64,000 nucleotides of DNA from Pseudomonas sp. ATCC 13867. GTDB lineage: Bacteria > Pseudomonadota > Gammaproteobacteria > Pseudomonadales > Pseudomonadaceae. The notes beneath the pieces are model-generated. The model ran no database searches. It was not told the DNA's origin and worked only from the letters and a program-made list of their open reading frames with translations. This document shows positions 2,512 through 49,806 of this stretch, piece by piece (within the stretch, counting starts at the first letter, position 1; every line of letters starts with the position of its first letter). The stretch lies in assembly GCF_000349845.1 (NCBI RefSeq), contig NC_020829.1, positions 4,409,001-4,473,000 of the forward strand, given 5' to 3'. The translations under genes were made by a program, and so were the position numbers.

Positions 2512-4005
2512 ATGGTCACAGAAAACGATAACAACGAGCTGTCGCTACAAGCTCGGCAGCGGCGGCAATTGATGCAAGCACTGGGAAGCGCAGCACTGCT
2601 CAGCGGGCTCGCGCTCAGCACGCGTGCCAATGCACAAGCGGCGCAGGATACCCAGGGCGATGTGCTCGACGTCGCCATCATCGGCGGCGGCCTCGCGGGG
2701 CTAACGGCAGGGCGCGACTTGCTCCGGGCCGGCAACCAGTCCTTCATCGTGCTTGAAGCACGCGATCGGGTCGGTGGACGCACCTATAACCACAACCTGG
2801 GTAACGGCGTGATATCCGAAGCAGGCGGTCAATGGATCGGCCCCGGTCAGACCGCCATTGTGGACCTGGCGCGTGAGCTCGAGGTCGACACCTTCCCCAC
2901 TTATTACCAGGGCAAGTCGGCCTACCTCATGGGTGACGCCAAGTACGAGGAAGACACGACCGATGGCGCCAAGACCAATCCAGTAATCGTCGAGAAGCTC
3001 AACGCGCTGGCCCGCAAGGTGCCCAGTAAGGCGCCCTGGAAAGCCGCCGATGCGGCGGCGCTGGACAAGCTTTCGGTCGGTGAATGGCTGAAGCAGCAGG
3101 GCGTCAGCAATGTCGACAAGTTCGGCTTCAACATGTCCGTGAGCCTGACCTTCGGTAGCCCGCCCGCCGGCATGGGACTTCTGCACTACCTGTCGATGAT
3201 CAACTCCTCCGACTGCAGCCTGGAGAAGCTCGAGGGCTTCAAGGGCGGCGCCCAGGAAACTCGCTTCGTGGGCGGCTCGCAGATCCTCAGCATCCGAATG
3301 GCCCAGACGCTCGGCAACAAGGTCAGTCTTTCCAGCCCGGTGCGCAGGATAGTTGGCTGGGATCGCGACATCGTCGAACTGCATACCGACAAGGGCATCG
3401 TCCGCGCGCGGACGGTTATCCTGGCCCTTAACCCGGCCCTGTGCGAGCAGATCACTTTCGATCCGCCGCTACCGGGCGGCCGCGCCGAGTTGCAACGACG
3501 CTGGCCAGCGCATGCACCCATGCGTAAGACGGTGCATGTCTACAAGCGCCCGTTCTGGCGGGACAAAGGCCTCAACGGCCAGATTGTACAGGTCGAGGGT
3601 CCGCTGATCCTTTCCTACGACAACTCGCCGCCTGACGGCAGCCTCGGGGTCCTGAGCGCCTTCGTTAAACCGGGGCAATTGCCTGTCGATCCCAAGGCCG
3701 CACAGGAAACCTTGTCCGCTATTTTCGCGCAGGCCATGGGTGACGAGGCGCTTCACCCCATGCAGTATCACGATCACGACTGGGGCAAGATCGACCCCTG
3801 GTCCCTGACCTGCATCTCGCCGATGCCACCCGGCTTCTGGACCAAACTGGGCGAATATCTGACCCCGTCAGTAGGCAGGTTGATCTGGTCAGGTACCGAA
3901 ACCGCCGACATCTGGGCCGGCTCAATGGATGGCGCCGTCCGCTCCGGACACCGCGCTGCGCTGGAAGCGCTGCAAGCGCTGACTCAGAGCCGGAGGACCG
4001 CATGA
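2512..4005 (+). CDS. Tat-exported flavin-containing amine oxidase/dehydrogenase (copy A)
   Basis: This is a 497 aa FAD-dependent amine oxidoreductase of the monoamine-oxidase fold. The N-terminus has twin arginines (R17-R18, RRQLMQ) followed by a hydrophobic stretch and an AxA-like site near residue 42, so export by Tat is likely. The Rossmann motif is DVAIIGGGLAG (about 53-63), with LEARDRVGGRT near 82-92. The C-terminal FAD motif is GTETADIWAG...MDGAVRSG. The stop codon overlaps the start of a diheme cytochrome c gene (ATGA), arguing that electrons pass to cytochrome c rather than O2, as shown for nicotine oxidoreductase NicA2 with CycN. Closely resembles the product of 6280-7779. The amine substrate is unknown. 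Confidence 0.88.
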   Translation: MVTENDNNELSLQARQRRQLMQALGSAALLSGLALSTRANAQAAQDTQGDVLDVAIIGGGLAGLTAGRDLLRAGNQSFIVLEARDRVGGRTYNHNLGNGVISEAGGQWIGPGQTAIVDLARELEVDTFPTYYQGKSAYLMGDAKYEEDTTDGAKTNPVIVEKLNALARKVPSKAPWKAADAAALDKLSVGEWLKQQGVSNVDKFGFNMSVSLTFGSPPAGMGLLHYLSMINSSDCSLEKLEGFKGGAQETRFVGGSQILSIRMAQTLGNKVSLSSPVRRIVGWDRDIVELHTDKGIVRARTVILALNPALCEQITFDPPLPGGRAELQRRWPAHAPMRKTVHVYKRPFWRDKGLNGQIVQVEGPLILSYDNSPPDGSLGVLSAFVKPGQLPVDPKAAQETLSAIFAQAMGDEALHPMQYHDHDWGKIDPWSLTCISPMPPGFWTKLGEYLTPSVGRLIWSGTETADIWAGSMDGAVRSGHRAALEALQALTQSRRTA

Positions 4006-4670
4006 TGAAACGAGTATTCGTCATTGGCGCCCTCACGGCAGCCGTTGCGCTGGTAGGCGCTGGCGCCGTCTACGGCCCTGAGATTTATGCGGGATACCGC
4101 TTCATGAATGCCCTCGACGAGCATGATGCCGAGTATCAGGCAAATGGCGGCGCCTGGCCGCAATTGCAGGACAGCTGCGCGCTTTGCCACGGGGACCATG
4201 GCCAACCGCAGAACGCCCAATTCGCATCGTTGGCCGGCCAGAGCGAAGCCTACATCGAGGAGCAGCTAAGGGCCTTCGCCGAAGGGCGCCGCCACAGCCC
4301 TCAAATGAGCCCATTGGCGGCGAACCTGAACGACGAGCAGATCAAGCAGTTGGCCCATTACTTCTCGCGGCAGAAGGCTGGTCGGACGGAAAGTCCCGCA
4401 AGCGACAAAGAGCTCGAGCAGCGAGGCCAGGCCACGGTCACCGCCAAGGGCTGCACTGCCTGCCATGGCGAAGGGCTTGCCGGCGGCCCTATTGCTCCGC
4501 GTATCGCAGGCCAGGGAAAGCTCTACCTGATTGATCAGCTCTCAGCCTTCAAACGTGGTGATCGCAAGGATCCGACGCAGGCCATGAATGCATTGGCCAG
4601 CTCTCTTTCCGAGGGAGAAATCCTCGCGGCAGCGCATTATCTGTCCACGCTTACTCCCGCCAAACAGTAA
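4002..4670 (+). CDS. Membrane-anchored diheme cytochrome c (copy A)
   Basis: This 222 aa protein starts with an uncleaved-looking membrane anchor (about residues 4-24) and has two c-type heme sites, CALCH (C59-H63) and CTACH (C151-H155). Candidate axial methionines are M102 and one near 195, giving a cytochrome c4-like tandem arrangement facing the periplasm. It overlaps the amine oxidase stop by 4 bp, so the two are translationally coupled. I infer that it takes electrons from the oxidase and passes them to the respiratory chain. The frame ends at a clear stop, and a strong hairpin terminator follows about 170 bp later. Confidence 0.9.
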   Translation: MMKRVFVIGALTAAVALVGAGAVYGPEIYAGYRFMNALDEHDAEYQANGGAWPQLQDSCALCHGDHGQPQNAQFASLAGQSEAYIEEQLRAFAEGRRHSPQMSPLAANLNDEQIKQLAHYFSRQKAGRTESPASDKELEQRGQATVTAKGCTACHGEGLAGGPIAPRIAGQGKLYLIDQLSAFKRGDRKDPTQAMNALASSLSEGEILAAAHYLSTLTPAKQ

Positions 4671-4840
4671 CCATTGCCCTTCTCGGTGGGCATGGACGCC
4701 CACCACTTTTTCCGGCCCTGTGATCAGGCCTCATCCCTTCTGCTATCGCTGCCAAGCCAGCGGCCTGAACAACCCATTCTTCCCCCGTCAGAACGATACT
4801 GCGCATCACCCTGCACAAGCGAACAATCAGTCATCCGAAA

Positions 4841-4872
4841 AGCAAAAGCCGCCTGGTCAGGCGGCTTTTGCT
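4841..4872. terminator. Bidirectional intrinsic terminator between convergent operons
   Basis: A perfect 13-bp stem (AGCAAAAGCCGCC / GGCGGCTTTTGCT) with a 6-nt loop includes A and T tracts on the two sides, so it can work in both directions. It separates the plus-strand oxidase-cytochrome pair from the minus-strand operon ending at 4923. Confidence 0.85.
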
Positions 4873-4922
4873 CAGGAGGCAATTGGGGTGCAGGTAGTGT
4901 TTGCCTGCGCCACAGATTGCAG

Positions 4923-5585
4923 TCAGCGGGCCGGTAGCATTTCCGACGAGCCTTTCAATCGCTCCAGCGCCCCATAGCCGTAGTAGAACTGACTCAGCAT
5001 GAAGGCCCAGGTGCTTAAGGCGAGAACATAGAAATTGAGAACCACGTTCGTCTCGTCGCCTGGAATCTTGTAGAAGTCATAGATGCTCGCAATCGCCTGG
5101 CCAGCGAGCATCGCGATGATTACGCCAAGTGCCTGGAGATAGGCTCCGACGCCAACCAGACGAGACGCGAAATAGACCAGGTAGATCGAGAAGAGCGACC
5201 ACATCGCGACATAGAAGTAAGGAAGAGGCTTGACCATGAAGTCCGCCAGGATGAGCACAAAGGTGGCGGCGAAGGTAACCAGGAACATCAGGAAGTCCTT
5301 GGACTTCGATGGCTTGTACCCATGTGTGACGGCCATCAGGCCAATGATGCTGATGATGGGAACGCCGAACCCTCTGGAAAAGGCATCGAGAAAGTGCGAA
5401 ATCTCGTAAGCGATGCCAGAGTTGGTCAGGAAGAAGATCAAGGCATTGGATGCTGAAAAGGCGATCACCAGGCATTCGACGCCCAGAAGATAGTTTCGCT
5501 TCTTCAGAAATTTATATCCGAATACGAATCCGGAGAGAACCAACAGGAAACAAGCAAAACACAACACCAAAGTTCTGGCGTCCAT
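4923..5585 (-). CDS. Integral membrane protein of unknown function in amine-oxidase operon
   Basis: This 220 aa, very hydrophobic protein has about six or seven predicted membrane spans (roughly residues 4-24, 35-55, 72-90, 100-118, 122-145, 148-168, 185-205) and no motif I can name. It is the third gene of the minus-strand operon after the amine oxidase and diheme cytochrome c, 28 bp downstream of the cytochrome. The plus-strand copy of the pair has no equivalent. It could be a membrane electron-transfer partner, a transporter for the amine or its product, or a sensor. None of these is shown by the sequence. Confidence 0.75.
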   Translation of the reverse strand: MDARTLVLCFACFLLVLSGFVFGYKFLKKRNYLLGVECLVIAFSASNALIFFLTNSGIAYEISHFLDAFSRGFGVPIISIIGLMAVTHGYKPSKSKDFLMFLVTFAATFVLILADFMVKPLPYFYVAMWSLFSIYLVYFASRLVGVGAYLQALGVIIAMLAGQAIASIYDFYKIPGDETNVVLNFYVLALSTWAFMLSQFYYGYGALERLKGSSEMLPAR

Positions 5586-5613
5586 AACGGCAACCTCGAA
5601 ATTGAATGGCTGA

Positions 5614-6270
5614 TCAATTGGCTTGCGGTGCTAGTGCCGCAAGGTAGTGGGCAACTGCCCGCCGATCGTCTGGGGAAAGTGTGGAGGTGATTGCTTTCAT
5701 CACTCCGCTGGGTTCGCTTCGTTTGCCGCTGGCGAACGCATCGAACTGGGCGATCAGATAGTCCACGCCCTGACCGGCAAGCCGTGGGAACTGCTCATGC
5801 CCCATCAGGTGCTCGCCGTGGCAAGCAATGCATCCTCCGGCCGCTACCAGCTGCTTTCCCTTATTGCGCAATGCCGGATCCGCCTGGAAGCTGCTGTTCT
5901 CCCGGGCTTGCTGCCTGGCGTAGTAATTCGCCAGCAGGTCAATCTCCTGCGCACTCAGCGTCATCGCCAGTGGCCCCATGTTCGGATAGGCCCTCTGTCC
6001 GTTCGCAAAATGCTGAAGCTGAGTCGCCAAATAGGTCACTGGCTGTCCCGCAAGACTGGGGTAACGCTGGTTAAGCGAACTACCCTTGACACCATGGCAG
6101 TTGACGCAGGTGTCCGTCAGATGCGGCCATGGACCGCCATCGGCCTCGTAGGCATTGGACGAATCGCTGATGTAGCTCTGCAGACGGTAGAGACCGAGAA
6201 CATCGCGACCATAGAAGGCCATCAGAATGGCCAGCACTGCAGCAACGCCAAGCAATATGAATTTCTTCAT
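5614..6270 (-). CDS. Membrane-anchored diheme cytochrome c (copy B)
   Basis: This 218 aa protein has an N-terminal membrane anchor (about residues 3-20) and two heme sites, CVNCH (C55-H59) and CIACH (C147-H151). M98 is a candidate axial ligand. It is a clear paralogue of the product of 4002-4670, with the same spacing of hemes and the same PSLAG/ASLAG block after the first heme. It lies 9 bp downstream of the second amine oxidase and is expected to accept its electrons in the periplasm. The next gene in the operon is the membrane protein at 4923-5585. Confidence 0.9.
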   Translation of the reverse strand: MKKFILLGVAAVLAILMAFYGRDVLGLYRLQSYISDSSNAYEADGGPWPHLTDTCVNCHGVKGSSLNQRYPSLAGQPVTYLATQLQHFANGQRAYPNMGPLAMTLSAQEIDLLANYYARQQARENSSFQADPALRNKGKQLVAAGGCIACHGEHLMGHEQFPRLAGQGVDYLIAQFDAFASGKRSEPSGVMKAITSTLSPDDRRAVAHYLAALAPQAN

Positions 6271-6279
6271 CGTCCGCTC

Positions 6280-7779
6280 CTACGCCTGACGCAATGCATT
6301 GAGGGCATGCAGAGCGCTCTGATGGCCGGAACGGACCGCGCCGTCCATATACCCGGCCCAGATGTCCGCCGTTTCCGTGCCCGACCAGATCAGGTTGCCG
6401 CAGGAAGGCCGCAGTGCCTCGCCATGGGTGCTCCAGAAACCCGGTGGAATTGCCGAGACACAGGTGATAGTCCAGGGATCGGCCTGCCCCCAGTCATGCT
6501 CGTGATACGACACCGGATGCAGCGCCTGCTCGCCCAGCGCCTGAGCGTAGATTTCCGCCTGCATGCGCTGCGCTGCCTGCCGATCGGAAGGAACCCGCGC
6601 ATTGGAGATGAAGGCGTTGATGACACCGATCTCACCGCCGGGTGGTGAGTTGTCCCAGGCCCAGATGACCGGGCCATCGACGGTCAACACATGACCGTTC
6701 AAACCCTTCTCCCGCCAGAACGGCCGGGAATAGACCATGGCACTCTTGCGTGCGGGGGAATGCGACGGCCAGGCCTGCTGCAACGCGGCGCGACCTTCGG
6801 GCAAGGGCGGGTCAAACGTGACCTGATGGCACAGCGCGGGATGGATGGCCACGATGACCCGGCGCGCGCGGATTTCCCCCTGGCCGGTGTGCAGCGTGAC
6901 GACTGGGCTATCCCAACCGGATATCTCGCGGACCGGACACGACAGGCGCACAAGGTCGCCCAACTGCTCGGCCATCTTCAGACAAAGTATCTGCGAGCCA
7001 CCGACCAGACGTGTGCCCTGGGCACTGTCCTTGATCGAGTCGAGCTTGTCGTATTCACAACTGGCGGAGTTGATCATCGAGAGGAAATGCAACAGCCCCA
7101 TCTTGGCCGGCGCCACGCCACCACTGAGCAGGAAACTGGCATTCCACCCGCCTCTATCCTCGGGCTTGATGTTCTGTCCGGCCAGCCAGTCGCCAGCCGA
7201 CATCTTGTCCAGCTCGGCGACCTTCGGAGATTTCCACGGTGCTCCCGAAGGCACGTCCCGTGACATTTCGCTGAGCTTGGCAGCGAGCGCAGGATCGGTG
7301 CCGAAAGTGCCCTTGAGATCGATCTCAAGGTGCCCCTCTCCGCCGAGAATGACGGTCCGGCCATCGTAGTAGGTCGGAAAGGTTCCAATCTCCAGCTCGC
7401 GCGCGAGATCGGCGACTGCGGTCTGTCCCGGCCCGATCCATTGGCCGCCGGCCTCGGAAATGAACCCCGACCCCAGATCATGGTTAAGGGTGCGTCCACC
7501 AACGCGATCGCGAGCCTCCAGGACAACGAAGGAGCGACACCCTGACAGATGCAGGTCCCTTGCAGCCGTCAGCCCGGCCAAGCCGGCACCAATGATGGCG
7601 ACATCCAGAACATCCTTCTCGCCTGCGGATGTCGCGGAGGTTCCGGCAGAAGGCTCCGCAGCAGCTGCCAGGCCCATCTTCAGCCCCAGCCCTCCGACGG
7701 CAGCGGTAGCCCCTGCAAACTTGAGTAATTGCCTTCGCCGTAAGTCGAAAGAACTATTCGAGGAGGACTTCTTAGTCAT
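6280..7779 (-). CDS. Tat-exported flavin-containing amine oxidase/dehydrogenase (copy B)
   Basis: This 499 aa paralogue of the oxidase at 2512-4005 has the same domain order. Its Tat signal is more canonical (RRRQLLK, residues 14-20, then a hydrophobic alanine/glycine-rich segment ending near 42). The FAD Rossmann motif is DVAIIGAGLAG (about 59-69), followed by LEARDRVGGRT and the C-terminal GTETADIWAG...GAVRSG. The substrate-side segments differ between the two copies, so they may prefer different amines. It leads a three-gene minus-strand operon. The 289 bp upstream of its start hold no other gene and are AT-rich near the start, as expected for a promoter. Confidence 0.88.
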   Translation of the reverse strand: MTKKSSSNSSFDLRRRQLLKFAGATAAVGGLGLKMGLAAAAEPSAGTSATSAGEKDVLDVAIIGAGLAGLTAARDLHLSGCRSFVVLEARDRVGGRTLNHDLGSGFISEAGGQWIGPGQTAVADLARELEIGTFPTYYDGRTVILGGEGHLEIDLKGTFGTDPALAAKLSEMSRDVPSGAPWKSPKVAELDKMSAGDWLAGQNIKPEDRGGWNASFLLSGGVAPAKMGLLHFLSMINSASCEYDKLDSIKDSAQGTRLVGGSQILCLKMAEQLGDLVRLSCPVREISGWDSPVVTLHTGQGEIRARRVIVAIHPALCHQVTFDPPLPEGRAALQQAWPSHSPARKSAMVYSRPFWREKGLNGHVLTVDGPVIWAWDNSPPGGEIGVINAFISNARVPSDRQAAQRMQAEIYAQALGEQALHPVSYHEHDWGQADPWTITCVSAIPPGFWSTHGEALRPSCGNLIWSGTETADIWAGYMDGAVRSGHQSALHALNALRQA

Positions 7780-8068: not shown

Positions 8069-9445
8069 TTACACGTGGTGATCACCTCTGCTGCGAGCCT
8101 TGCGGTTGGTGTAGTCATCGAGCCGGTTCGCCGCACCCAGCGCCAGATTCATCACACACCATTGCAACGGGTCAGGAAGCATCGCCGGGGTCTTGTGCCG
8201 CAAGGCGGCCAGAAGTGGATGTTCGATACCACCGATTCGCTCGGCGAGCAGATGCCCCATGAGCGATTGAGTCCCCACCCCGTGTCCGGAACATCCGGCC
8301 GTGTATAGGATGTTCTGCTGCGCACCGGTCTCACCGACCACCGGCAACGCGTCGTAGGCAAAGCTGATGTAGCCACTCCAGCAGGCCTGGATACCAAGAC
8401 CACGCAAGGTTGGAAAACGATCGTTCAGCGCCAACGCCAGTTCGCGATAGGCGGCATGATCCGGTTCGTTCGGCGTTTGGGCGCCATATACGTAACGCAG
8501 CCGCTTGGTCGTCAGTACAAGCGTATTGCGGGCGGTAAGACGATGGCTCTCCATGGTGAAGTGCGAGGTCACGATCCCTTCACGATTGGGCCAACCCAGC
8601 GAGTCCAACTGTGCGGAGGAGAGCGGTTCGGTCTCGATTGCAGAAACCTTCAGCGGCATCACTTTGTTCTGCAGCAAGCCCAGCTGAGGCGTATAGGCGT
8701 TGGTTGCCAACACCAGGAAAGGAGCACTCGCCGTGCCTCGGGCTGTCCGGCACTGAATGGTCGGGCCTTCCTGGTACGACAGAAGAGCCGTGTTTTCATA
8801 CAGCTTCACCCCTGCCTGAATGGCCGCACGCCGCAACCCCATCACATATTTGCCCGGATTGAGCGTGCCACCGCCGGGGACATAGCAACCGAACAGGAAC
8901 GCGGGCGGTATTCCACGAGCGCGCATGGCGGCGTAATCGAGAAACTCACCGGGGGAGCCCAGTTCCAGGCCTGTACGCATACTCTCGCGAAGCTTCCTCT
9001 CCTGGGAGGGATGGACCCCGGCGCGGATGATGCCCGAGGCGTTGTAGTCGCAGTCGATCCCGAGTTCGCCGAGCCTCTTTTCGACATAGGAAACGCCCTG
9101 ATCGTAGAAGCGAACGATTTCCTTCGCCTGCTTGCGGCCAACGCGCTTGAGGAACAACTCGTATTCAAGCCCCTGGCCGCCGGCAAGGTACCCCGCGTTG
9201 CGGCCGCTGGCACCAAAGCCGGCGAAATCCTTCTCCAGCACTATCACCTTCGCGCCCAGTGCGGTGAGCTCCAGGGCAGTGGAGAGGCCGGCGAAACCGG
9301 CCCCCACCACTATCACATCGGCAGTGACGTGACCTTCGAGCTCCGGCTGCAAGTCGTCCGGTTTCTCGACCCAGCCGCCAAGACTGCGAAACGTTTGGGC
9401 TCCGGCGCCACGGCCGGCACTTTCATCTGGATAATTCCCACGCAT
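8069..9445 (-). CDS. FAD-dependent oxidoreductase, DAO/PuuB-like
   Basis: This 458 aa protein belongs to the D-amino-acid-oxidase fold (glycine oxidase / gamma-glutamylputrescine oxidase-like). The FAD-binding motif is DVIVVGAGFAG (about residues 43-53), followed by GASGRNAGYL, a signature of the PuuB-like group. There is no signal peptide, so it is cytoplasmic. A strong GGAGG Shine-Dalgarno lies before the ATG, 11 bp after the thiolase gene, making it the last gene of the acyl-CoA operon read from 14757. Likely role: oxidation of an amine or amino-acid-like intermediate, producing an imine or aldehyde. The substrate is not readable. Confidence 0.82.
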   Translation of the reverse strand: MRGNYPDESAGRGAGAQTFRSLGGWVEKPDDLQPELEGHVTADVIVVGAGFAGLSTALELTALGAKVIVLEKDFAGFGASGRNAGYLAGGQGLEYELFLKRVGRKQAKEIVRFYDQGVSYVEKRLGELGIDCDYNASGIIRAGVHPSQERKLRESMRTGLELGSPGEFLDYAAMRARGIPPAFLFGCYVPGGGTLNPGKYVMGLRRAAIQAGVKLYENTALLSYQEGPTIQCRTARGTASAPFLVLATNAYTPQLGLLQNKVMPLKVSAIETEPLSSAQLDSLGWPNREGIVTSHFTMESHRLTARNTLVLTTKRLRYVYGAQTPNEPDHAAYRELALALNDRFPTLRGLGIQACWSGYISFAYDALPVVGETGAQQNILYTAGCSGHGVGTQSLMGHLLAERIGGIEHPLLAALRHKTPAMLPDPLQWCVMNLALGAANRLDDYTNRKARSRGDHHV

Positions 9446-9456
9446 GGCCAGGCCTC

Positions 9457-10695
9457 CTATCGGCTCAGGATATGAATTGCGACAGCGCCCTCTTCCACAC
9501 CCACGAGTCCGCCGCCGTTCTCCTGAATCGCATGGCGCGCGCCCTCGACCTGACGTGCTCCCGCCTCCCCACGCAACTGGGTGGTGAGCTCGTAGAGCTG
9601 GCCGATGCCAGTCGCGCCGAGAGGATGCCCCTTGGATTCCAGGCCACCAGACGGGTTGATCGGAATCCGGCCGCCCACGGTGAAGTCACCGCGTTCGGCA
9701 CAGGGCCCGCCCTGCCCCATGGGAGCCAAACCAAGGTTTTCCGCCTGGATGATCTCGCCCATGGCGGATGCGTCGTGGACTTCGGCCACATGCATGTCCT
9801 GGGGGCCCAGACCGGCGATCTCGTAGGCCTGCAGCGCAGCCAGGTGGCTGACATGCTTCTCCGACTCGTCGATGCCCCGCAGCGTGAAGCTGCGGATCAC
9901 GCTGGCGGCGATCTTCACGCAGCGCCGCGGGTCGGCACCGATCCGTTTCAGGCCGGCCTCGGTGCAGATGATCGCGGCGGCGGCGCCGTCGGTCATGGGT
10001 GCGCACATCGGCAGGGTGATCGGATAGGTGATCGGCGGCGCCGCCAGCACTTCCTCGATGGTGAAGGGCTTGCGGAACTGGGAGTACGGGTTGTGCACCG
10101 AATGGTTATGGTTCTTCGCGCACACCGCCGCGATCTGCCGCTGGGTGGTGCCGTAGGTTTTCATGTGCCAACGGCAGAAGCCGGCGTAGATGGACATGAA
10201 GCGGCTGTACGGACGGTCGGACTCCGAGCCGGGCGGCGGCACTATTCCGTCCCCCATCTTCGACAGGATGGCGAAGTTTTCCTCCGCACGGGCTACGTCC
10301 CATCCCGCTTCGAACAGGGCGAAGGACTTCGCCTTGTCGGCCACCACCATCTTCTCGCAGCCCAGGGCCAGCGCAACATCGGTCGCGCCAGCACGCAGGC
10401 TCTGCACCGCCAGGTGGACAGCAGTGCTGCCAGATGCGCAGGCGTTCTCCACGTTGTAGGCCGGCACACCTTCGATGCCGATCTTGCTCATGACCACCTG
10501 CCCGGGAATGGACAGCTGGCCCTGCAAGGCTCCGTTGGTGATGCCGGCGTAGAAGACGGCCCCGATATCGGAGCGTTGTGCGCCGGAATCAGCCAACGCA
10601 CCGTTGAGCGCTTCCAGGGCCAGCTCTTCAAGCTTGCGGTCCGGATGGCGACCGAATTCGGTCATGGCAATGCCGGCGATATAGATTGGTTCCAT
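9457..10695 (-). CDS. SCP2-type thiolase (thiolase family protein)
   Basis: This 412 aa thiolase is of the sterol-carrier-protein-X class. The nucleophile is C86 in NVENACASGS and a GHPLGATG histidine motif lies near residue 348. The C-terminus has ENGGGLVGVEEGA rather than the CxGGG of classical thiolases, which is typical of SCP2-type enzymes acting on branched or side-chain acyl-CoAs. It follows the acyl-CoA synthetase by 17 bp and precedes the FAD oxidoreductase by 11 bp. Expected reaction: thiolytic or retro-Claisen cleavage of a 3-oxoacyl-CoA in the cytoplasm. Confidence 0.87.
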   Translation of the reverse strand: MEPIYIAGIAMTEFGRHPDRKLEELALEALNGALADSGAQRSDIGAVFYAGITNGALQGQLSIPGQVVMSKIGIEGVPAYNVENACASGSTAVHLAVQSLRAGATDVALALGCEKMVVADKAKSFALFEAGWDVARAEENFAILSKMGDGIVPPPGSESDRPYSRFMSIYAGFCRWHMKTYGTTQRQIAAVCAKNHNHSVHNPYSQFRKPFTIEEVLAAPPITYPITLPMCAPMTDGAAAAIICTEAGLKRIGADPRRCVKIAASVIRSFTLRGIDESEKHVSHLAALQAYEIAGLGPQDMHVAEVHDASAMGEIIQAENLGLAPMGQGGPCAERGDFTVGGRIPINPSGGLESKGHPLGATGIGQLYELTTQLRGEAGARQVEGARHAIQENGGGLVGVEEGAVAIHILSR

Positions 10696-10712: not shown

Positions 10713-12272
10713 TCAGATCTGCCGGTTGGCGGCTTGCCAGTAGCGTGCGCGCAGGTCCTTCTTCAGGACCTTGCCAACCGGGCTTCGTGGCAGGGCATCA
10801 ACGAAGTCGACGGTCTTGGGCGCCTTCACCGACCCCAGGCGCTCCTTGCACAGCGCAATCAGCTCTTCGGCGCTGACGCTCTGCCCGGTGGCCAGTTCCA
10901 CCACCGCCTTGACGCTCTCGCCCCACTTCTCGTCCGGCACGCCGATCACCGCGCAGTCCTGCACCGCCGGGTGACCCCAGAGCACTTGCTCAACCTCGCT
11001 CGGGTACACGTTGAAACCACCGGAAATGATCATGTCCTTCTTGCGGTCGGTGATGTGGAGGTAGCCATCGGCATCAAGGTGACCGATATCGCCGGTATGC
11101 AGCCAGCCGTCGATGATGGTTTCCGCGGTCTTCTGCGGGTCCTTGTAGTAGCCCTTCATGATCAGGTCGCCACGCACGCAGATCTCACCCGTCTCGCCCT
11201 GCGGCAGGATCTGGTTGTCGTCGTTCATGATCTCGACCCGGATCAGCGGGTTGGGCCTGCCGACCGAGGACAGCCGCTCGTTGCCTGCGACAGCGCCATC
11301 GACGAAGTGCTCGCCTGGCGTCAGGTGTGCGATGGCGCCTGGTGCTTCGGTCTGGCCATAGCCTTCCATCATGACCGGCCCGAAGACCTCGATGGCCTGG
11401 CGCAGCTTCTCCACCGACATCGGTGCCGCGCCGTAGAGGAAATAGCGCAGCGACGAGAAGTCGACCTTCTTGTTCAGGTCGGGAATGTCCAGCAGTCGAT
11501 AGATCACGGTCGGCGGCAGGAAGAACTCCGTGACCTTGTATTGCGGAATCGCAGCCAGCAGCAGCTGCGGATCGGGCTTGGTGATCACCACCACGGTGCC
11601 GCCCCTTGCCGTGCAGGGGAAGGACAGCATGCCGGCGGTATGGGTCATCGGCGCCGCCGCCAGGTTCACCGGCCGGATGTCCGCCGGATAAGGGGTATTG
11701 ATCATGAAATGCGCGAAGCTGGTCTGTACGCTCCGATGCGTGTTCATGACCCCCTTGGGCAAGCCTGTAGTGCCACCGGTGGGACCGACCCAAATCACAT
11801 CGTCGGGGTCAACGGCGACCCGCGGATCGGTGCTCGGTTGGTCCTGGACGAAGCTCTGGAGCGACTCCGCACCATCTACATCCCCATCGACGCAAATCCA
11901 TAGGCGGACCTTGGGCAGCTGCGGGCGCAAGGAGGTAATGGCTTCGGCGAATTCACGCTGGAAGAACAGGATTTCGCAGTCGAACGCGTCCAGCACATAG
12001 CGGTTTTCCTCGGGCGCGTTGCGCGCGCCCACCGGAATCCAGCATTGATTGGCACGCCACAGTCCCAGCGCGCAGAGCCAGGCCGTCACATCGTTGGCCG
12101 CCCAGACGGCGCCCTTGGTTCCGGACGCGAAGCCCCTGGCCAGAAGGGCATTAGCAATGCGGCAGGACATTTCACCCGCTTCGGTGAAGGTCGTGACCTC
12201 ACCGTCCTGGATGTAGGCCGCGCCGTTCGGATTGCTCCGCCAGCCGCGGTCGAAGAAATCGATAATCGCCAT
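10713..12272 (-). CDS. Acyl-CoA synthetase (AMP-forming)
   Basis: This 519 aa member of the ANL superfamily activates a carboxylic acid to its CoA thioester with ATP. The open frame extends further, but the ATG at 12272 (MAIIDFFDRG) is chosen because the extension would overlap the upstream gene. The P-loop VGPTGGTTGLPKG lies at residues 162-174. GYGQTEAPG, GWLHTGDIG, DRKKDMIISGG and the catalytic-lysine region PRSPVGKVLKKDL follow in the right order. It starts 10 bp after the saccharopine-dehydrogenase-like gene. The acid could be short, aromatic or alicyclic, and the specificity cannot be read. Confidence 0.9.
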   Translation of the reverse strand: MAIIDFFDRGWRSNPNGAAYIQDGEVTTFTEAGEMSCRIANALLARGFASGTKGAVWAANDVTAWLCALGLWRANQCWIPVGARNAPEENRYVLDAFDCEILFFQREFAEAITSLRPQLPKVRLWICVDGDVDGAESLQSFVQDQPSTDPRVAVDPDDVIWVGPTGGTTGLPKGVMNTHRSVQTSFAHFMINTPYPADIRPVNLAAAPMTHTAGMLSFPCTARGGTVVVITKPDPQLLLAAIPQYKVTEFFLPPTVIYRLLDIPDLNKKVDFSSLRYFLYGAAPMSVEKLRQAIEVFGPVMMEGYGQTEAPGAIAHLTPGEHFVDGAVAGNERLSSVGRPNPLIRVEIMNDDNQILPQGETGEICVRGDLIMKGYYKDPQKTAETIIDGWLHTGDIGHLDADGYLHITDRKKDMIISGGFNVYPSEVEQVLWGHPAVQDCAVIGVPDEKWGESVKAVVELATGQSVSAEELIALCKERLGSVKAPKTVDFVDALPRSPVGKVLKKDLRARYWQAANRQI

Positions 12273-12282
12273 CTTCGTCACT

Positions 12283-13413
12283 TCACAGCTGGGTAATGGA
12301 TGCGCGAGCCAGACCACGCTGCTCGAGGAAGCCGAGCATGTAGCGATGGCCGAAGGCTTTCGAGGTCGATGCGAAGCCCACCTTGGCGGTGTCGTTATCC
12401 AGCAGGCGAACCACGGCTGCGGCATGAAGCGCGCCGGTGGCGATGTAGGGCTTCACGCCATGAACGGTGGCGCGTACGGCCGACAGGTGGCCACGACCGA
12501 TGGCGAAGTCGACGGTGCGCTGCAGCGGGCCGCGCTCACGCGGCGGCATGACCGGGGTCGTGGAGTCGACGAGACTCTTGATCACCGCGTCCTGCTGTTC
12601 CTTGGGCAGGTGCTTGTATTCGGCCTCCCACTTCTCGCCCAGCGCATGCACGCTCTGCATGACCGGGTTGTCGTAGAAGCCGACGCAAGAGATGCAGCTA
12701 CGCACACGCGGATCGTTCTCGAAGTACACCGGCAGCGAAGTACCGCCCCACGGCAAGCAGAACACGGACTCCATCAGGTCCGGCGAAACCACATTGAAGC
12801 TGGAACGCGGCGAGTGCGGGACCAGTTTGTTCTCCCACAGATAGTGGGCTTCCTGGCGATAGGTTTCGAAGATGGTGGCAGCCGAACCCACGGACACACC
12901 GGCGGCACCGCGCGGGCCACGGGTCAGGGTCGCGGTTTCCAGCGCATCGATGCCCTGGGTTTCCAGTGCCAGCTCGGCCGCGATCTCGGCGTAGGTGTAC
13001 ATGTAGGCGACCGAGGGCGACAGCAGCAGGCCAGCCTGGCGGAACAGCTCACCGTAGTTATCGCGCAGGGCGCGGATGTGCTGCTGCTCACCGGCCGGGT
13101 CCAGGTAGTGGCAGCCCGCCTTGAGGGCAGCCTCGACGGTAACCTGACCGAAGTTTGCGAACGGACCGACGGTGCTGCAGACCACGCGGGCCCCCTTGAA
13201 CACCTTGACCAGCGCCTCGACCTCGTGGGGGCACTCGACCAGCTCATAGGTGGCGGACTCGAGGCCGACCACACGCTCGGCCATCATTTCCTTGGCGCGG
13301 GCGGCATTGCGGGCAACCGCGGTGAACGGAATGCCTTGGTCGATCAGCCAATCCATGATCAGCATGCCGGTGTAACCGCTGGCGCCATAGACAACGACAG
13401 GATATTTAGCCAT
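12283..13413 (-). CDS. Saccharopine dehydrogenase-like NAD(P)-binding oxidoreductase
   Basis: This 376 aa protein has an N-terminal Rossmann motif VVYGASGYTGMLI (about residues 7-19) of the saccharopine-dehydrogenase / trans-acting enoyl reductase family. It also has the family-typical CSTVGPFANFG and ACHYLDPAGE-like region (here CHYLDPAGEQQH). Such proteins reduce or oxidise C=C or C=N bonds with NAD(P)H. In a CoA-dependent catabolic operon either an enoyl reduction or an imine step is possible. It lies between the acyl-CoA dehydrogenase (60 bp upstream) and the acyl-CoA synthetase (10 bp downstream). The function is not certain beyond the family. Confidence 0.8.
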   Translation of the reverse strand: MAKYPVVVYGASGYTGMLIMDWLIDQGIPFTAVARNAARAKEMMAERVVGLESATYELVECPHEVEALVKVFKGARVVCSTVGPFANFGQVTVEAALKAGCHYLDPAGEQQHIRALRDNYGELFRQAGLLLSPSVAYMYTYAEIAAELALETQGIDALETATLTRGPRGAAGVSVGSAATIFETYRQEAHYLWENKLVPHSPRSSFNVVSPDLMESVFCLPWGGTSLPVYFENDPRVRSCISCVGFYDNPVMQSVHALGEKWEAEYKHLPKEQQDAVIKSLVDSTTPVMPPRERGPLQRTVDFAIGRGHLSAVRATVHGVKPYIATGALHAAAVVRLLDNDTAKVGFASTSKAFGHRYMLGFLEQRGLARASITQL

Positions 13414-13473: not shown

Positions 13474-14757
13474 TCAGGCCTGGGACCAGCCTTCGGCATA
13501 GAGCTGCTGCGCAAGCAGCCCCAGACGCATGGTCAGGATGCGGTTCTCACCGTCTTCGATGAGCGCGGACTGGGTGTCGCGCAGCAGCTTCTCGATCGGG
13601 TACTCGAGGGTGGTGCCGTTGCCGCCGAAGAGGCGGAACGCTTCCTCCACCACCGCCAGCGTCTCTTCGGTCACGGTGACCTTGGCAGAGGCAGTGGCAT
13701 AGGGATGGGTTAGCGGCGAGAGACGAGCAAAGCTCAGTGAGCGACGAGCGACCGCACGGGCGGTTTCCACTCGACGGAGCATTTCGCCCAGGCGCAGTCG
13801 CGTCATTTGGTGGTCGATCAGCATGCGGCCGCCCTGGCGACGCTCATGGCAGTACTGCAGCGCCAGCTCGAATGCAGCCCGGGCAACGCCGGTGAAGACC
13901 TGGCTCATGTGGGTGCCGGCGTAGGACCAGGAAGAGCTCACAGCGCCGTAGTAGCCATCTTTCTCGGCAATGGCGAAGCGCCGCGGGATACGCACGTCAT
14001 CGAAGTAGATTTCGCCCTGGGGCAGCGAGCGCTGGCCGATCTTCGCCAGCGGCTTGCCCTTGGAAACGCCCTTGATATCAAGCGGCACGATCACAGCGAT
14101 GCCATTGGGCAGGCCATCGTCAGCGTAGAAACCGTCACCGTAGTCGGCGCACATCAGGCCGAAGGCGACCTGAGCCACCGCGCCGTTGGACACCCAGGCC
14201 GAGCTCTGGCCATTGATGATGATCTCGTCGCCGACGACCTTGGCGGTCAGGTTGCCAATGTTGGCAGGCGTGCCGGCAGGCCAGTCGCGCTTGATATCCA
14301 GCAGTTGGTTGTCGCTGCCGCGATCCGGCTGGGTGGCCATCCAGCACCCGATACGCCCCTGGCACAGCTCGACCAGCTCGGCGCTGCCGGCGGCGGCAGC
14401 CATCTGCAGCGGGAAGCCGGCGCAGCCGAGCGATACGCCCAGGCCTGCATCGCCCCAACCCAGCTCCTCGCCAATCATGGACTCGATGCGTACCGCCATT
14501 TCCGGCGGCAGCTCGGCCAGCAGCGCGGGATCGAGCCCCAGCTTCGCGAACTCGCCAAATACCGAATAGAAGGGCGAGCCGGGAGCGATGACTTCTTCCG
14601 CGCTCATGCGATCCAGCTCGCGCCCGATCGGCCGCAGTACGTCTTTTGCGAAGCGATGCACCGAGGCCTGGATCGCGGCCTCTTCTTCAGACAGTGGGGT
14701 TTCGAATCCGCTCAGACCGACGGCAGGCAAGGTCAGGTTGGGCTTCAGAGAAATCAT
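13474..14757 (-). CDS. Acyl-CoA dehydrogenase family protein
   Basis: This 427 aa flavoprotein is the probable first gene of the operon. The ATG at 14757 is chosen over the upstream open frame because AGGAGGTGTC sits at ideal spacing before it. The acyl-CoA dehydrogenase pattern is seen in the N-terminal helical domain, the mid-beta region (WMATQPDRGSDNQL) and the C-terminal FGGNGTTLEYPIEKLLRD. The segment ALIEDGENR occupies the place of the catalytic YEGT, with a glutamate retained. It probably introduces a double bond into an acyl-CoA from the synthetase product. The 402 bp upstream contain a strong palindrome (14972-14995). Confidence 0.88.
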   Translation of the reverse strand: MISLKPNLTLPAVGLSGFETPLSEEEAAIQASVHRFAKDVLRPIGRELDRMSAEEVIAPGSPFYSVFGEFAKLGLDPALLAELPPEMAVRIESMIGEELGWGDAGLGVSLGCAGFPLQMAAAAGSAELVELCQGRIGCWMATQPDRGSDNQLLDIKRDWPAGTPANIGNLTAKVVGDEIIINGQSSAWVSNGAVAQVAFGLMCADYGDGFYADDGLPNGIAVIVPLDIKGVSKGKPLAKIGQRSLPQGEIYFDDVRIPRRFAIAEKDGYYGAVSSSWSYAGTHMSQVFTGVARAAFELALQYCHERRQGGRMLIDHQMTRLRLGEMLRRVETARAVARRSLSFARLSPLTHPYATASAKVTVTEETLAVVEEAFRLFGGNGTTLEYPIEKLLRDTQSALIEDGENRILTMRLGLLAQQLYAEGWSQA

Positions 14758-14971
14758 GGCGACACCTCCTGGGAAGGCACCTGACAGGTCATCCGTTGGA
14801 GACCGGACAGGCAGTAGAGGCGACCGGAGAACGCGAACGTCGGCGAGCTGCTGCAAGGCATTGGGGCGGCAGTGAGATTCCCACTGCACATCGATCCAGC
14901 TGCGAGCTCTCGGCGCTCGTCCTCCTGGTCAGCCTGTTGTTGTTTGAGGTCAATCTAACAAGCCGTCTATT

Positions 14972-15159: not shown

Positions 15160-16020
15160 TCAGCCGTTCGGAGTGTCACCTGGCGCACTGCTGCGTCGCC
15201 ACAGCGAGCCGCTCCGCAGGCCTCGATGGCGGAAGGGTTGGAACCCTGTCATCTGTCTCAGGCGAGGGGACATGTCACGGACAATTTCGGCGGGTATCTG
15301 GAGCGGGTGGGCATCCAGGGGCACCAGCGAGGCAATGTTGAACAACGCTACGGCTAGCCTCTGCCTGTCAGCCTGCGAGACGTTAGCGCCAATGCCATGC
15401 ACAAGCTTGCCGCTGCAGAAAAGAACCGCCCCGGCCTTCAGCGGCACGGGTATCGTCGACTCCGGCTGATAGGGCTCGCAGAAATCCCACTCGTGACTGC
15501 CCGGAATCAGCCGAACAGCGCCGGAGGCTTGAGTCGAGTCGCCCAGCGCGACGTACATACTGCACGTCACTTCCTCCGCGCCCGGGCCGTATGGAAGGAA
15601 AATCGGGTAGTGATACAGGCTGCGTCCCAGCGGCAATGCCTCATCGCCGGGACGGCTCTCCAATACCTCGGAGCAGCTCAGCCACATGGCACCGCTGCTC
15701 CCGCCCAGAAGAGCCAGGACCAGTGCATTGATGTTGTCCTGATCCAGGAAGGCATCTCGGAAGGTCTTGCTCAGCGTCACCAGGTTCGCCACGTGAGCCG
15801 AGCATCGGCCGGACTCGTGACCACCCAGGCCTTGCGCAAGATCAGCCGCAATGGCTGCATCGATTTCCACATTGATGGCGGCGACCTGCCGGGCACTGAG
15901 CACTCCTTCGAGAATCACTGCCCCGTCCTTCTGGACAATGTCGATCACATCGTCGACCGACGTGTCGCCAGGCACCGTCTGCAGCCCCCGCACGACGGTG
16001 TTTCCCTCAGGGTAATCCAT
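15160..16020 (-). CDS. Phytanoyl-CoA dioxygenase-like protein with altered metal site
   Basis: This 286 aa PhyH-fold protein starts at the ATG at 16020 (MDYPEGN), preceded by GAGGAGC; the longer frame has no ribosome site. The conserved RLIPGSHEWDF (about 170-180), LVHGIGANVS (distal H208) and R221 are present. However, the position of the usual HxD reads H137-Y-P139, so the metal-binding aspartate appears to be absent. Loss of this residue is known from Fe/2OG halogenases (Asp to Ala/Gly) and from inactive members. Which applies here is unclear. It stands alone downstream of an AraC gene on the same strand. Confidence 0.75.
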   Translation of the reverse strand: MDYPEGNTVVRGLQTVPGDTSVDDVIDIVQKDGAVILEGVLSARQVAAINVEIDAAIAADLAQGLGGHESGRCSAHVANLVTLSKTFRDAFLDQDNINALVLALLGGSSGAMWLSCSEVLESRPGDEALPLGRSLYHYPIFLPYGPGAEEVTCSMYVALGDSTQASGAVRLIPGSHEWDFCEPYQPESTIPVPLKAGAVLFCSGKLVHGIGANVSQADRQRLAVALFNIASLVPLDAHPLQIPAEIVRDMSPRLRQMTGFQPFRHRGLRSGSLWRRSSAPGDTPNG

Positions 16021-16271
16021 TGCTTGCTCCTCGCTCGCGGGTGCTCTGAATGCGGAGGCTGCCTGGTATCGACAGGAGGAAAAGCATCGCCTGGCACGAA
16101 TACGCAATACCCGTGCACGCTGCTGCTTCAGCGCCCCGGCAGGAAATCTAGCAATGCGGAATATTTTTAACAACGACCGTTATTTCAATGTATTCAGGAC
16201 GCTGGGGTCCGCCGACTCACGTTGCCATCACCGACCGGCCCCGATTCACGGAGCGGATGAAAATTGGAAAC

Positions 16272-17321
16272 TCAGTCCCCGTGGCCAGTGCGGGCGGACC
16301 GGTAGCGCCCAGGACTCATGCCAGTCCACTGGCGGAAGACACGATGGAAAGCACTGGGCTCCTGAAAGCCGCAACGAATGGCGATTTCCGTGATACTCAG
16401 CTCGGTATCATCAAGAAGCTCGAAGGCAAGGGCCTTGCGCACCTCGTGCTTGAGCAACTGGTAAGAAAAACCTTCACGCTCAAGCTGTCGACGGAAAGCA
16501 GAATCCGTCATCGACAGGCTGCGCGCCATGTCTGTCAGCGAAAGCCAATCCTGCTCACTTCCGGCCTTCAGGCGTCGATAGACCTTGGCGGACAGACCGC
16601 TGCGATTGCGGAAGCGAACCACCACGCCTTCCGGTGCATGACGCAGGAACTGCTTGAGCCCGGCAAAGTTGCGCACCACCGGCAGGCCGAGTTGCGAGGC
16701 GTCGAACTCCACTTCGGTGTGCGTGGCGTCAAACTGAATCCAGTGCCCCCACAGCAGCGGGTCCGTTCTGTGGGGCGGGCGGGAATGCCCGAACTGGGTT
16801 CGCTCCAGGTTGATCCGCCTTCCCACAAGCCAGCAGGCAACGCCCATGACCATGCTGAGGTATACCTCCTCGGCGACGCCCCGGATGGAGCTCTCATCGA
16901 TCCGGTTGTCGAGCACGATCACCGCGCGATCACCGCGTATCTCCAGCCGCGCCCGGATATCCGCGAGGAACAGGCCGAGGCCCGACAGGCACTGATTCAG
17001 CGCGCGCCCAAGGTCGGGCTCATGCAGCGCGCTTCGGCAGATCATGGCGAAACTGCCGCGCGGCATGCCGCGTGAATCGAAGGCGAAAAACTCGTCGCCG
17101 AGCTCTTCGGTGAGCGACAGCCACAAGCGTGTTACCGCATCGGCGGGCACACCATGCAGAGGGTCGAGCAGCCAGGACGGATCGATCCCCGCTGCATCCA
17201 GCAGTTCCCTTACCCGCTGTGGGCGAGAGGCCAGACGATGCAGGGCAGTCGTCACGAAATACGCGGCGACCGAGTCGCTCTGGCGAAGTACTCCGGACTC
17301 GGTGTCACTCTTTTCGATCAT
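16272..17321 (-). CDS. AraC family regulator with Arabinose_bd-type N-terminal domain
   Basis: This 349 aa protein has an N-terminal effector domain of the Arabinose_bd / OruR type (about residues 20-210) and a C-terminal double helix-turn-helix (about 240-340). The latter includes TDSAFRRQLEREGFSYQLL and the signature AIRCGFQEPSAFHRVFRQWTGMSPGRYR. Regulators of this type usually activate a neighbouring catabolic operon in response to its substrate. It lies upstream of the dioxygenase-like gene at 15160-16020 on the same strand and divergent from the thiolase at 17423, so either may be its target. Confidence 0.88.
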   Translation of the reverse strand: MIEKSDTESGVLRQSDSVAAYFVTTALHRLASRPQRVRELLDAAGIDPSWLLDPLHGVPADAVTRLWLSLTEELGDEFFAFDSRGMPRGSFAMICRSALHEPDLGRALNQCLSGLGLFLADIRARLEIRGDRAVIVLDNRIDESSIRGVAEEVYLSMVMGVACWLVGRRINLERTQFGHSRPPHRTDPLLWGHWIQFDATHTEVEFDASQLGLPVVRNFAGLKQFLRHAPEGVVVRFRNRSGLSAKVYRRLKAGSEQDWLSLTDMARSLSMTDSAFRRQLEREGFSYQLLKHEVRKALAFELLDDTELSITEIAIRCGFQEPSAFHRVFRQWTGMSPGRYRSARTGHGD

Positions 17322-20434: not shown

Positions 20435-21394
20435 TCAGGGCACAGGCACTACGCCGCGCTGGGAAAACAGCGCAACGCTGCCGTCAGGCTCCAGCACCGC
20501 CGTGGTCAGCGGCGCGCCCTCGGCGGCCTTCTGCTCCTGGAAGCTATGTCCGCCATCGCTGCTACGCACCAGAAGACCATCCAGCCCTACGGCCAGCACC
20601 TGCTGGCCAGACACTACAACCCTGGTGACCGAGCCCTTGCTCTGCACCGGAATGCGCTGCCAGTCCTGTCCAAGGGCGGAGCCCTGCATCAGGGTTCCGC
20701 GCTGTCCGCCAACCAGCAGGCTGCCATCGGCCAGCACCGCTCCCGACCAGAGCGTGCCGCTATAGCCGGTATCGATGTATCGCCAGGTCCTGCCGCGATC
20801 CTCCGAAGCCAGCAGCTGTCCGTGCTCGGCCGTCGCATAGAGGGTGCCCTTGCCGTCGCTGAAGAGCCCCATCAGGTTCAGGTCCGCACGCTTGGAGCCG
20901 GGCGGCGGAGCGAGCTTCTGCTCGCTCCATGTCTTGCCGCCATCATCCGTGGTCAGCACCAGCGACCACAGCCCCACGGCCACCCCCTGCTGGGCATTGA
21001 AGAAATGCACGGCAAACAGCGGCCGATCCACGTCGCTGGCCATGCGCTGGATCTGCCATGACTCCCCGCCATCAGAAGTGACGAGAATCGCCCCCCAATG
21101 GCCGACCGCCCAGCCATGATCGGCATCGACGAAGGACACCCCCGTCAGAGGCGTGGAGAGGGGGACTGAACGCGCCTGGCGAAAGTTCTTGCCCTGGTCG
21201 TCGGACAACAGCACTTCGCCGTGATCTCCCACAGCCACCAGGCGATTTTTCGCCCAGGTCGCGTCCAGCATGGCAGCAGCGGTGGCATAGCTCGCGGCTA
21301 CCGCAGGCACCGGCTGCAGGTCTTCAGCCTGCGTGGCAGATATCGGTAGGAGTGCCCCAAACAGCACGCCGATGAATGCAATTTCGTAACGCAT
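20435..21394 (-). CDS. YCF48/BNR-repeat family exported protein
   Basis: This 319 aa protein has an N-terminal signal peptide (about residues 1-23, ending ISATQA) and repeated beta-propeller blades. These carry BNR-like motifs such as SDDQGKNF, TSDGGESW, TTDDGGKTW, SEDRGRTW and SSDGGHSF. It resembles the YCF48 / photosystem-stability-factor fold, which in proteobacteria occurs next to RND (MMPL) proteins. The ATG at 21394 is used because the signal peptide begins there. It lies 10 bp after the RND gene, and a periplasmic partner role with the pump and the DUF1302/DUF1329 proteins is likely. Confidence 0.85.
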   Translation of the reverse strand: MRYEIAFIGVLFGALLPISATQAEDLQPVPAVAASYATAAAMLDATWAKNRLVAVGDHGEVLLSDDQGKNFRQARSVPLSTPLTGVSFVDADHGWAVGHWGAILVTSDGGESWQIQRMASDVDRPLFAVHFFNAQQGVAVGLWSLVLTTDDGGKTWSEQKLAPPPGSKRADLNLMGLFSDGKGTLYATAEHGQLLASEDRGRTWRYIDTGYSGTLWSGAVLADGSLLVGGQRGTLMQGSALGQDWQRIPVQSKGSVTRVVVSGQQVLAVGLDGLLVRSSDGGHSFQEQKAAEGAPLTTAVLEPDGSVALFSQRGVVPVP

Positions 21395-21404
21395 TGACCT
21401 CTCC

Positions 21405-25465: not shown

Positions 25466-25494
25466 GTTGGCTCTCGATCGACATCGACTACGGG

Positions 25495-26919: not shown

Positions 26920-26991
26920 TGGAAAGTCCTCATGAGCCTCAACCGGTGGCGAGCACTTCCCGAGGGGATACATCGGATAGCGGCACGCACC

Positions 26992-29139: not shown

Positions 29140-29173
29140 TCTTTTCCCTTTGTGTTCATGGGTTCTCGCCGAA

Positions 29174-47796: not shown

Positions 47797-47812
47797 GGAA
47801 TGCATGGCTCCT

Positions 47813-49800: not shown

Positions 49801-49806
49801 GCCTCG

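Follow-up and report, generated by a model that had tools for sequence, protein, structure and literature searches.

A near-obligate pair of Tat-signal flavin amine oxidoreductases, each with its own diheme cytochrome, and a candidate two-step route for hydrophobic amines in Pseudomonas sp. ATCC 13867

Why should a bacterium carry two paralogous flavin amine oxidoreductases (FAOs), each with a twin-arginine translocation (Tat) signal and each with a cytochrome gene of its own? The question is raised by a stretch of 64,000 nucleotides of Pseudomonas sp. ATCC 13867 (RefSeq assembly GCF_000349845.1, contig NC_020829.1, positions 4,409,001 to 4,473,000 of the forward strand; hereafter the window), whose genome of 5.70 Mb is a single contig. 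Here the gene pair FAO-A and cytA faces an operon of three genes, FAO-B, cytB and MEM. We favor, with moderate confidence, the reading that the two FAOs are periplasmic cytochrome-c amine dehydrogenases forming a non-redundant pair that acts on a single hydrophobic amine at two of its C-N bonds. The kind of enzyme is already known; what is new here is the near-obligate pairing of the copies, their old joint descent and the parallel split of their active sites. An initial annotation, made from the letters of the window, had noticed the two enzyme-cytochrome pairs; that observation is confirmed, while its interpretation proves half right and largely already in print, and we regard it as partly supported.

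FAO-A (2512-4005, forward strand; 497 aa) and FAO-B (6280-7779, reverse strand; 499 aa) match the Pfam Amino_oxidase family (PF01593; E values of 1.6e-53 and 9.8e-52 for the two) and start with the twin-arginine motifs RQRRQLM and RRRQLLK, at the places where the annotation had put them. Each FAO gene is followed on its own strand by that of a diheme c4-like cytochrome, with a 4-base overlap between FAO-A and cytA (4002-4670, forward strand; 222 aa) and a 9-base gap between FAO-B and cytB (5614-6270, reverse strand; 218 aa). The two cytochromes, 41% identical, have two CxxCH motifs, two cytochrome c domains and a single N-terminal hydrophobic segment apiece, which could be a membrane anchor or a cleaved signal. 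These spacings and diheme partners, likewise described initially, are borne out, as is the opposed orientation of the pairs, which converge on terminator-like hairpins. One of these follows cytA (4685-4704, forward strand; GGTGGGC..GCCCACC, then ACTTTTT), and its pattern alone is weak, the region holding 3 such sites against 5.3 expected in shuffles; the other is a two-way hairpin between the convergent operons (4841-4872, both strands), folding at -25.2 kcal/mol on one strand and -26.3 kcal/mol on the other, energies that none of 200 shuffles equaled.

Among the eight PF01593 matches in the host genome, only FAO-A and FAO-B have an open reading frame (ORF) with CxxCH within ~1.5 kb. Across the 164 FAO copies examined, a diheme ORF lies at most 1 kb downstream in 161, and the adjacency is therefore not due to chance; the copies lacking one are the A copy at locus L034, the first copy at L035 and the second at L041 (contig ends; one CxxCH seen). 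A Tat-like RR motif is found in 163 of the 164 by a motif pattern that was widened after a stricter version had missed 13 of 70. The nearest solved structures of cytA are cytochromes c4 (6q2u, 8uf3 and 1etp; E = 5e-19), with which it shares its two CxxCH motifs and two cytochrome domains, and from which cytA and cytB differ in that each is tied to a single FAO by both operon and descent. The best record for FAO-B among the matches listed is from Pseudomonas sp. 30_B (100% identity), and one from P. panipatensis is 96% identical.

Close relatives of these enzymes have been measured. Akram et al. 2025 (PMC12224317, cited here, like PMC9396064, PMC3900636 and PMC11893366 below, for the part of the text that was accessible) describe as clade 1 a set of Tat-signal FAOs that go with membrane-bound diheme c4-type cytochromes of ~20 kDa and react slowly with O2. 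For three clade 1 enzymes with such a partner, from B. metallica, P. aeruginosa and B. stagnalis, the rate constants are 160-590 M-1 s-1 with O2, about those of free flavin, and first rate constants are 290-2700 M-1 s-1 with the cytochrome; a clade 1 enzyme from P. otitidis with no partner nearby reaches 4500 with O2 (PMC12224317). In a genome of B. stagnalis we found 10 PF01593 matches, and only the two copies of the FAO-A/B family have an adjacent diheme ORF (a very weak match, at locus L102, lies next to an ORF of 98 aa that has one CxxCH). Because only these two adjoin a diheme ORF, the B. stagnalis enzyme measured in PMC12224317 is very probably one of them. The family shares with clade 1 a Tat-signal FAO and an adjacent, putatively membrane-type diheme c4 cytochrome of ~20 kDa, in Pseudomonas and Burkholderia alike; it differs in that the clades of PMC12224317 are there called distant from human monoamine oxidase (MAO), whereas FAO-A and FAO-B score nearer to MAO than to the nicotine oxidoreductase NicA2. 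By analogy with the measured enzymes, FAO-A and FAO-B would likewise be expected to react slowly with O2 and to pass electrons to a cytochrome of the c4 type. The initial reading of periplasmic amine dehydrogenases passing electrons to cytochrome c is well supported by these relatives and by the adjacency in B. stagnalis.

The annotation had drawn its comparison with NicA2, and in this the cytochrome-c dehydrogenase reading stands and the kinship of sequence does not. The strongest match among solved structures is 8p84, an entry named monoamine oxidase (E = 9e-82 for FAO-A and 6e-86 for FAO-B), and MAO-A (FAO-A, E = 1.2e-60) and putrescine oxidase (FAO-B, E = 9e-63) match as well, these E values running from about 1e-60 to 1e-86. 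NicA2 (5ttj and 6c71, the latter so named in PMC9396064 and the former grouped with it) gives far weaker matches of 7.8e-23 for FAO-A and 1.9e-26 for FAO-B, and a related chain, 7khn, 4.7e-28.

How regularly the two copies occur together was asked of genome samples drawn evenly to avoid selection, a carrier being a genome with an FAO copy at E <= 1e-120. Among 398 Pseudomonadaceae, the host included, there are 19 carriers, all with exactly two copies (scoring covered the top three candidates of each genome, which could conceal counts above three but not counts of one). Among 299 Burkholderiaceae, with five candidates scored per genome, 37 are carriers: 34 with two copies, and single genomes with three, four and five. 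No single-copy carrier is found among the 56 of both samples, genomes reached through individual loci have at least two copies in 45 of 45 cases, and in a class-wide sample of 369 the host is the sole carrier, with two. The distance between copies ranges from adjacency to ~31 kb, mostly 4-31 kb in the Pseudomonadaceae sample, and some pairs are divided between contigs. Their orientation varies: the window has them convergent and Marinobacter divergent, some Burkholderiaceae carry both on a single strand, and Oxalobacteraceae and Ralstonia have tandem copies. We found no mention of obligate pairing, of the cage split described below or of the third membrane gene in the accessible text of PMC12224317, nor of the first two in a wider literature search at the level of titles, and a search aimed at the FAO-A/FAO-B cluster, likewise by title except for PMC12224317 and PMC9396064, gave nothing beyond the clade 1 text.

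Phylogenetic trees of the FAOs (74 rows) and of the cytochromes (66 rows) were used to trace the descent of the pair. The former leaves out L036_7932, cut by a contig end, and L094, the same gene as L029, merges rows with identical ends and lacks L061, for which there is no sequence; the latter leaves out L041_7887 and the copies whose partner could not be read (L034_4191, L035_6034 and L036). In the FAO tree, clade B (30 rows, support 100/100) and clade C (19 rows, mostly tandem pairs, 100/100) stand out, and within C there are two lines of nine rows, C1 (100/99) and C2 (98/90), and a basal row, L044_5544, that is counted here with C1 and is the sole member of it with tyrosine at the position discussed below. 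The remaining rows are termed A, a group whose unity depends on the root: under the root as drawn, the A copies of Pseudomonas, Marinobacter and Burkholderiaceae do not form one clade. In the cytochrome tree, a single branch sets apart each group of partners: 19 cytochromes that go with A (99/97), 30 with B (99/97) and 17 with C (100/100). The partners separate as their FAOs do: each enzyme has been passed on jointly with its cytochrome, and on the evidence of both trees A and B go back to an old duplication, with a distinct cytochrome clade accompanying either one. The initial claim of a duplication hence stands as regards two paralogs and falls as regards a local event: a recent local duplication is rejected by the identity of 58% between FAO-A and FAO-B (57-58% across comparisons) and by a split that predates the spread to gamma- and betaproteobacterial carriers. 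A single ancient split that places C1 with A was also rejected, by the approximately unbiased (AU) test of A plus C1 as one clade (p-AU = 3.5e-8), a grouping chosen after the tree was seen and for which early gene conversion between tandem copies is an alternative.

We take Tyr407 and Tyr444 of MAO-A to be its aromatic cage, Phe208 to be a gate and Ile335 a selectivity residue. The cysteine that holds flavin adenine dinucleotide (FAD) in MAO (residue 406 of MAO-A; Cys434 in FAO-A, Cys440 in FAO-B) and the lysine near flavin N5 (Lys339 and Lys345) are aligned in all 164 copies. The two-tyrosine cage, on the other hand, is absent: its first position is Ile435 in FAO-A and Val441 in FAO-B, and its second is Ser471 in FAO-A, hence of a cage-open type, and Tyr477 in FAO-B, of a Tyr-cage type. 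At the position aligned to Phe208 there is an acid, Glu241 in FAO-A and Asp247 in FAO-B, and across the family it is Glu in 21 A, 10 C1 and 9 C2 rows and Asp in 30 of 30 B rows. With MAO A and B, putrescine oxidase and 8p84, their nearest solved structures, the FAOs therefore have in common the aligned FAD cysteine and the catalytic lysine, and they differ from them in Tat export, the cytochrome, the replaced first cage tyrosine, the loss of the second in A and the acid at the gate.

The copies divide at the second cage position. None of the 21 A rows has tyrosine there (Ser in 10, Ala in 9, Gly in 2), whereas all 30 B and all 9 C2 rows do, and the 10 C1 rows again have mostly small residues (Thr in 7, Ser in 1, Ala in 1, and Tyr in the basal row). 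Counted by genome, at least one copy with a small residue (Ser, Ala, Gly or Thr) and at least one with tyrosine occur together in 75 of 78, which is the sum of 51 of 54 in a first table, of G374, whose A copy had been removed by the motif filter and was read apart for the cage residue only (it is not counted for Tat or diheme), and of 23 of 24 in a second table. Within the even samples, whose carriers were matched to the cage table by identical coordinates, the figure is 53 of 56 (18 of 19 Pseudomonadaceae and 35 of 37 Burkholderiaceae). When each of 448 alignment columns was scored for whether A is like C1 and B like C2 or the reverse, 16 exceeded +2 and 2 fell below -2 (sign-flip p = 1e-4); the strongest of all was the second cage position, and the fifth strongest was column B373, aligned to Ile335 of MAO-A. 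As the A plus C1 clade is rejected and the cage tops this test, the division of the cage either evolved in parallel or persisted by way of early gene conversion, and in both cases selection is the likely cause.

A comparable division is known from nicotine degradation in Pseudomonas putida S16, in which NicA2, the enzyme of the first step, has Trp427 and Asn462 in its cage and Pnao, of the second, Trp434 and Phe470 (PMC9396064). The spacing of the cage residues is 35 in NicA2, 36 in Pnao, 36 in FAO-A and FAO-B and 37 in MAO-A, NicA2 being compared by spacing and not by alignment, and on account of this similarity Asn462 and Phe470 probably occupy the second cage position of FAO-A and FAO-B. 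NicA2 and Pnao, with their cytochrome CycN, thus offer a parallel in two Tat-signal cytochrome-c FAO dehydrogenases, of which one has a non-aromatic and one an aromatic cage residue; they differ in having a small monoheme cytochrome of class I type in common, within one operon, where FAO-A and FAO-B have a diheme cytochrome each and two operons. We propose that FAO-A and FAO-B, exported and FAD dependent, would pass electrons one at a time to their own membrane-tethered diheme cytochromes and on to the respiratory chain rather than to O2. The cage-open FAO-A would probably act first, on a bulkier N-substituted or cyclic amine, the resulting imine would be hydrolyzed, perhaps with the help of a Rid protein, and FAO-B with its tyrosine cage might then oxidize the simpler amine so produced, with the carbonyl product entering an acyl-CoA β-oxidation route encoded in the same cluster.

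Several observations weigh against this proposal. The order of the steps rests on analogy. The reduction of the cytochromes in solution is modest (290-2700 M-1 s-1), and c4 as the true acceptor is not proven even in clade 1 (PMC12224317); the authors of that study note that the missing membrane may explain the low rates. Because the copies are usually linked, from adjacent to ~31 kb apart, co-transfer on an island accounts for part of the pairing with no need for both enzymes. Three genomes, G045, G140 and G853, have tyrosine in both copies, although those of G853 still differ at positions 220, 232 and 343, and the split is not clean, since a further type of copy (in G060, G047, G853 and G1088) combines the cage tyrosine with A-like residues at 220 and 232. 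The two columns below -2 oppose the parallel between A and C1 and between B and C2, and MEM also occurs without these FAOs, in 7 of 26 MEM genomes.

One alternative is that the two dehydrogenases serve two different amines or enantiomers and stay together only on an island that moves as a block, with no shared pathway. It draws on the separate transcription units with different neighbors (PhyH, Rid, EthD and TetR genes for A; MEM and a DAO gene for B), on distances of mostly 4-31 kb in the Pseudomonadaceae sample that make co-transfer easy, and on the patchy spread of the genes, present in three of 25 genomes of the genus with the host's own included. Such an origin sits poorly with the presence of at least two copies in 56 of 56 carriers despite varied order and orientation and the placing of some pairs on different contigs, and with the same active-site split in the second pair, C1 and C2; we regard it as unlikely. 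Specialization for two amines, as initially suggested, is possible, with two steps on one amine giving the better fit.

The near-obligate co-occurrence would also follow if A and B made up a single heteromeric enzyme with two diheme cytochromes, and NicA2 and Pnao are described as homodimers (PMC9396064), so that paralogs could pair; with separate operons, some copies on different contigs and a cytochrome for each, we find this very improbable. Were the FAOs instead periplasmic oxidases that use O2 and produce H2O2, the cytochromes serving something else, the lysine near flavin N5 that oxidases need would be expected, as it is found in 164 of 164 copies (it is also present in nearly all the dehydrogenases, PMC12224317), and the closest solved structures are indeed oxidases. 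To this stand opposed the adjacent and co-inherited diheme ORF of 161 of the 164 copies and the free-flavin-like O2 rates found for the three clade 1 enzymes that have a cytochrome partner (PMC12224317), which leave it scarcely any credence. Two routes from other compounds were also considered. The sphingosine genes sphBCD were dropped as relatives on their descriptions, without sequence comparison: SphC is called an oxidoreductase, flavin-dependent or linked to FMN, and SphB is a c-type cytochrome, given as mono-heme in a 2014 table and as a predicted lipoprotein in a 2025 paper (PMC3900636, PMC11893366). Benzalkonium degradation, as a lead to the substrate, yielded nothing direct in a literature search at the level of titles.

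The third gene of the B operon, MEM (4923-5585, reverse strand), was missed in the initial annotation. It starts 28 bp after cytB and encodes an uncharacterized membrane protein that matched no family in a Pfam search and whose predicted structure has seven helices (predicted local distance difference test score 88, predicted template modeling score 0.84). MEM directly follows cytB in 28 of 31 B loci, lies elsewhere in the locus in two and is cut off in one. It is present in 26 of the 398 Pseudomonadaceae, namely, all 19 FAO carriers and seven others, and in these seven a DAO gene lies alongside in six and a diheme ORF in the seventh. Loci with MEM outside the FAO setting (L152-L160) have a DAO gene of 66-69% identity alongside in 8 of 9, and often also another PhyH dioxygenase, DUF1302, DUF1329 and RND genes and an ORF that by eye resembles a flavin monooxygenase; these are probably sister pathways for related compounds. 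As to its role, docking or a quinone-linked function would be a guess.

The genes around the two operons point to a wider catabolic cluster. On the A side, all on the forward strand, are a PhyH-family dioxygenase cut by the window start (1-628; the full gene is L088:17726-18628), a Rid-family protein (646-1062; Ribonuc_L-PSP, a family that includes enamine and imine deaminases), an EthD-family protein (1131-1427) and, upstream of FAO-A, a TetR-family regulator with a BetI-type C-terminal domain (1579-2283). The B side, all on the reverse strand, begins upstream of FAO-B with a DAO-family FAD oxidoreductase (8069-9445), followed by a thiolase-family protein (9457-10695), an AMP-binding acyl-CoA ligase (10713-12425, its true start probably further in), a DUF5938/NAD(P)-binding protein (12283-13413), an acyl-CoA dehydrogenase (13474-14889), a second PhyH-family dioxygenase (15160-16173) and an AraC-family regulator (16272-17321). 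Beyond these lie a YCF48/BNR protein, an MMPL/RND exporter and DUF1302 and DUF1329 proteins (20435-26973), a kind of set associated with hydrophobic compounds, and then an APH-domain protein, a short-chain dehydrogenase and an enoyl-CoA hydratase/3-hydroxyacyl-CoA dehydrogenase (28069-32239). Recurrence of neighbors was counted over 57 loci from named genomes, and that of the DAO and aldehyde dehydrogenase genes over 54 sources (53 loci and the window): 13 of 20 A copies have a Rid protein in their locus, 37 of 54 sources a DAO gene and 9 of 54 an aldehyde dehydrogenase. We infer that the cluster would convert a hydrophobic amine by way of an aldehyde or ketone, an acid and an acyl-CoA to products of β-oxidation. 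In some Pseudomonas, a solute-binding protein (L046:3223-4371, L052:3270-4418 and L055:3256-4404) and a chemoreceptor are encoded between the EthD/TetR genes and FAO-A; the solute-binding protein of L046 is a Pfam SBP match, PotF-like by eye, and this arrangement hints at detection of the amine outside the cytoplasm.

Third-position guanine-plus-cytosine (GC) content is ~0.61-0.82 in positions 1-36000 of the window against ~0.80-0.93 for genes in 47800-64000, and because of this lower content and the presence of FAO-A and FAO-B in only 3 of 25 genomes of the genus, the host's own included, the stretch 1-36000 looks horizontally acquired. Three overlapping ORFs of 714, 493 and 398 aa occupy 42252-47033 (reverse strand) in an AT-rich patch of 44-46% GC; a Pfam match was obtained for the 398-aa one only (Phage_integrase), and by layout they look like a recombinase trio beside the catabolic island. 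At 40155-40760 (reverse strand), also in the AT-rich patch, a DUF6088/AbiEi_4-type protein is encoded beside a HAD hydrolase, and upstream of the window 10 kb (L088:5000-15000; genome C1:4396001-4406000) have few clear long genes by codon composition. Elsewhere in the host genome, a third FAO of 469 aa (G000:C1:4644973-4646307; loci L087 and L001) keeps both MAO cage tyrosines, with no Tat motif and no cytochrome nearby, and 16 of the 25 genomes of the genus have FAOs that share ~40% identity with FAO-B.

The usual habit is to interpret amine oxidases gene by gene, and as oxidases; a near-obligate pairing together with a parallel active-site split is what a specialist would not have expected. 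With some hesitation, and leaning slightly against it, we raise the more general possibility of a two-enzyme periplasmic module needed for the removal of nitrogen from a class of hydrophobic amines, made up of a cage-open and a Tyr-cage amine dehydrogenase that would each be connected to a diheme cytochrome of its own. Its split would have arisen in parallel at least twice in this family, in A/B and in C1/C2, with NicA2/Pnao as a third case. If so, the cage residue would become a readable sign of the "first" and the "second" amine dehydrogenase in uncharacterized pathways, and the seven-helix MEM would be a new part of the route. The same split in two separately derived pairs makes both substrate choice and the order of the steps in the superfamily testable by residue swaps, and together the findings point to an uncharacterized catabolic route for a hydrophobic amine in Pseudomonas, Burkholderia, Cupriavidus, Marinobacter and their relatives.

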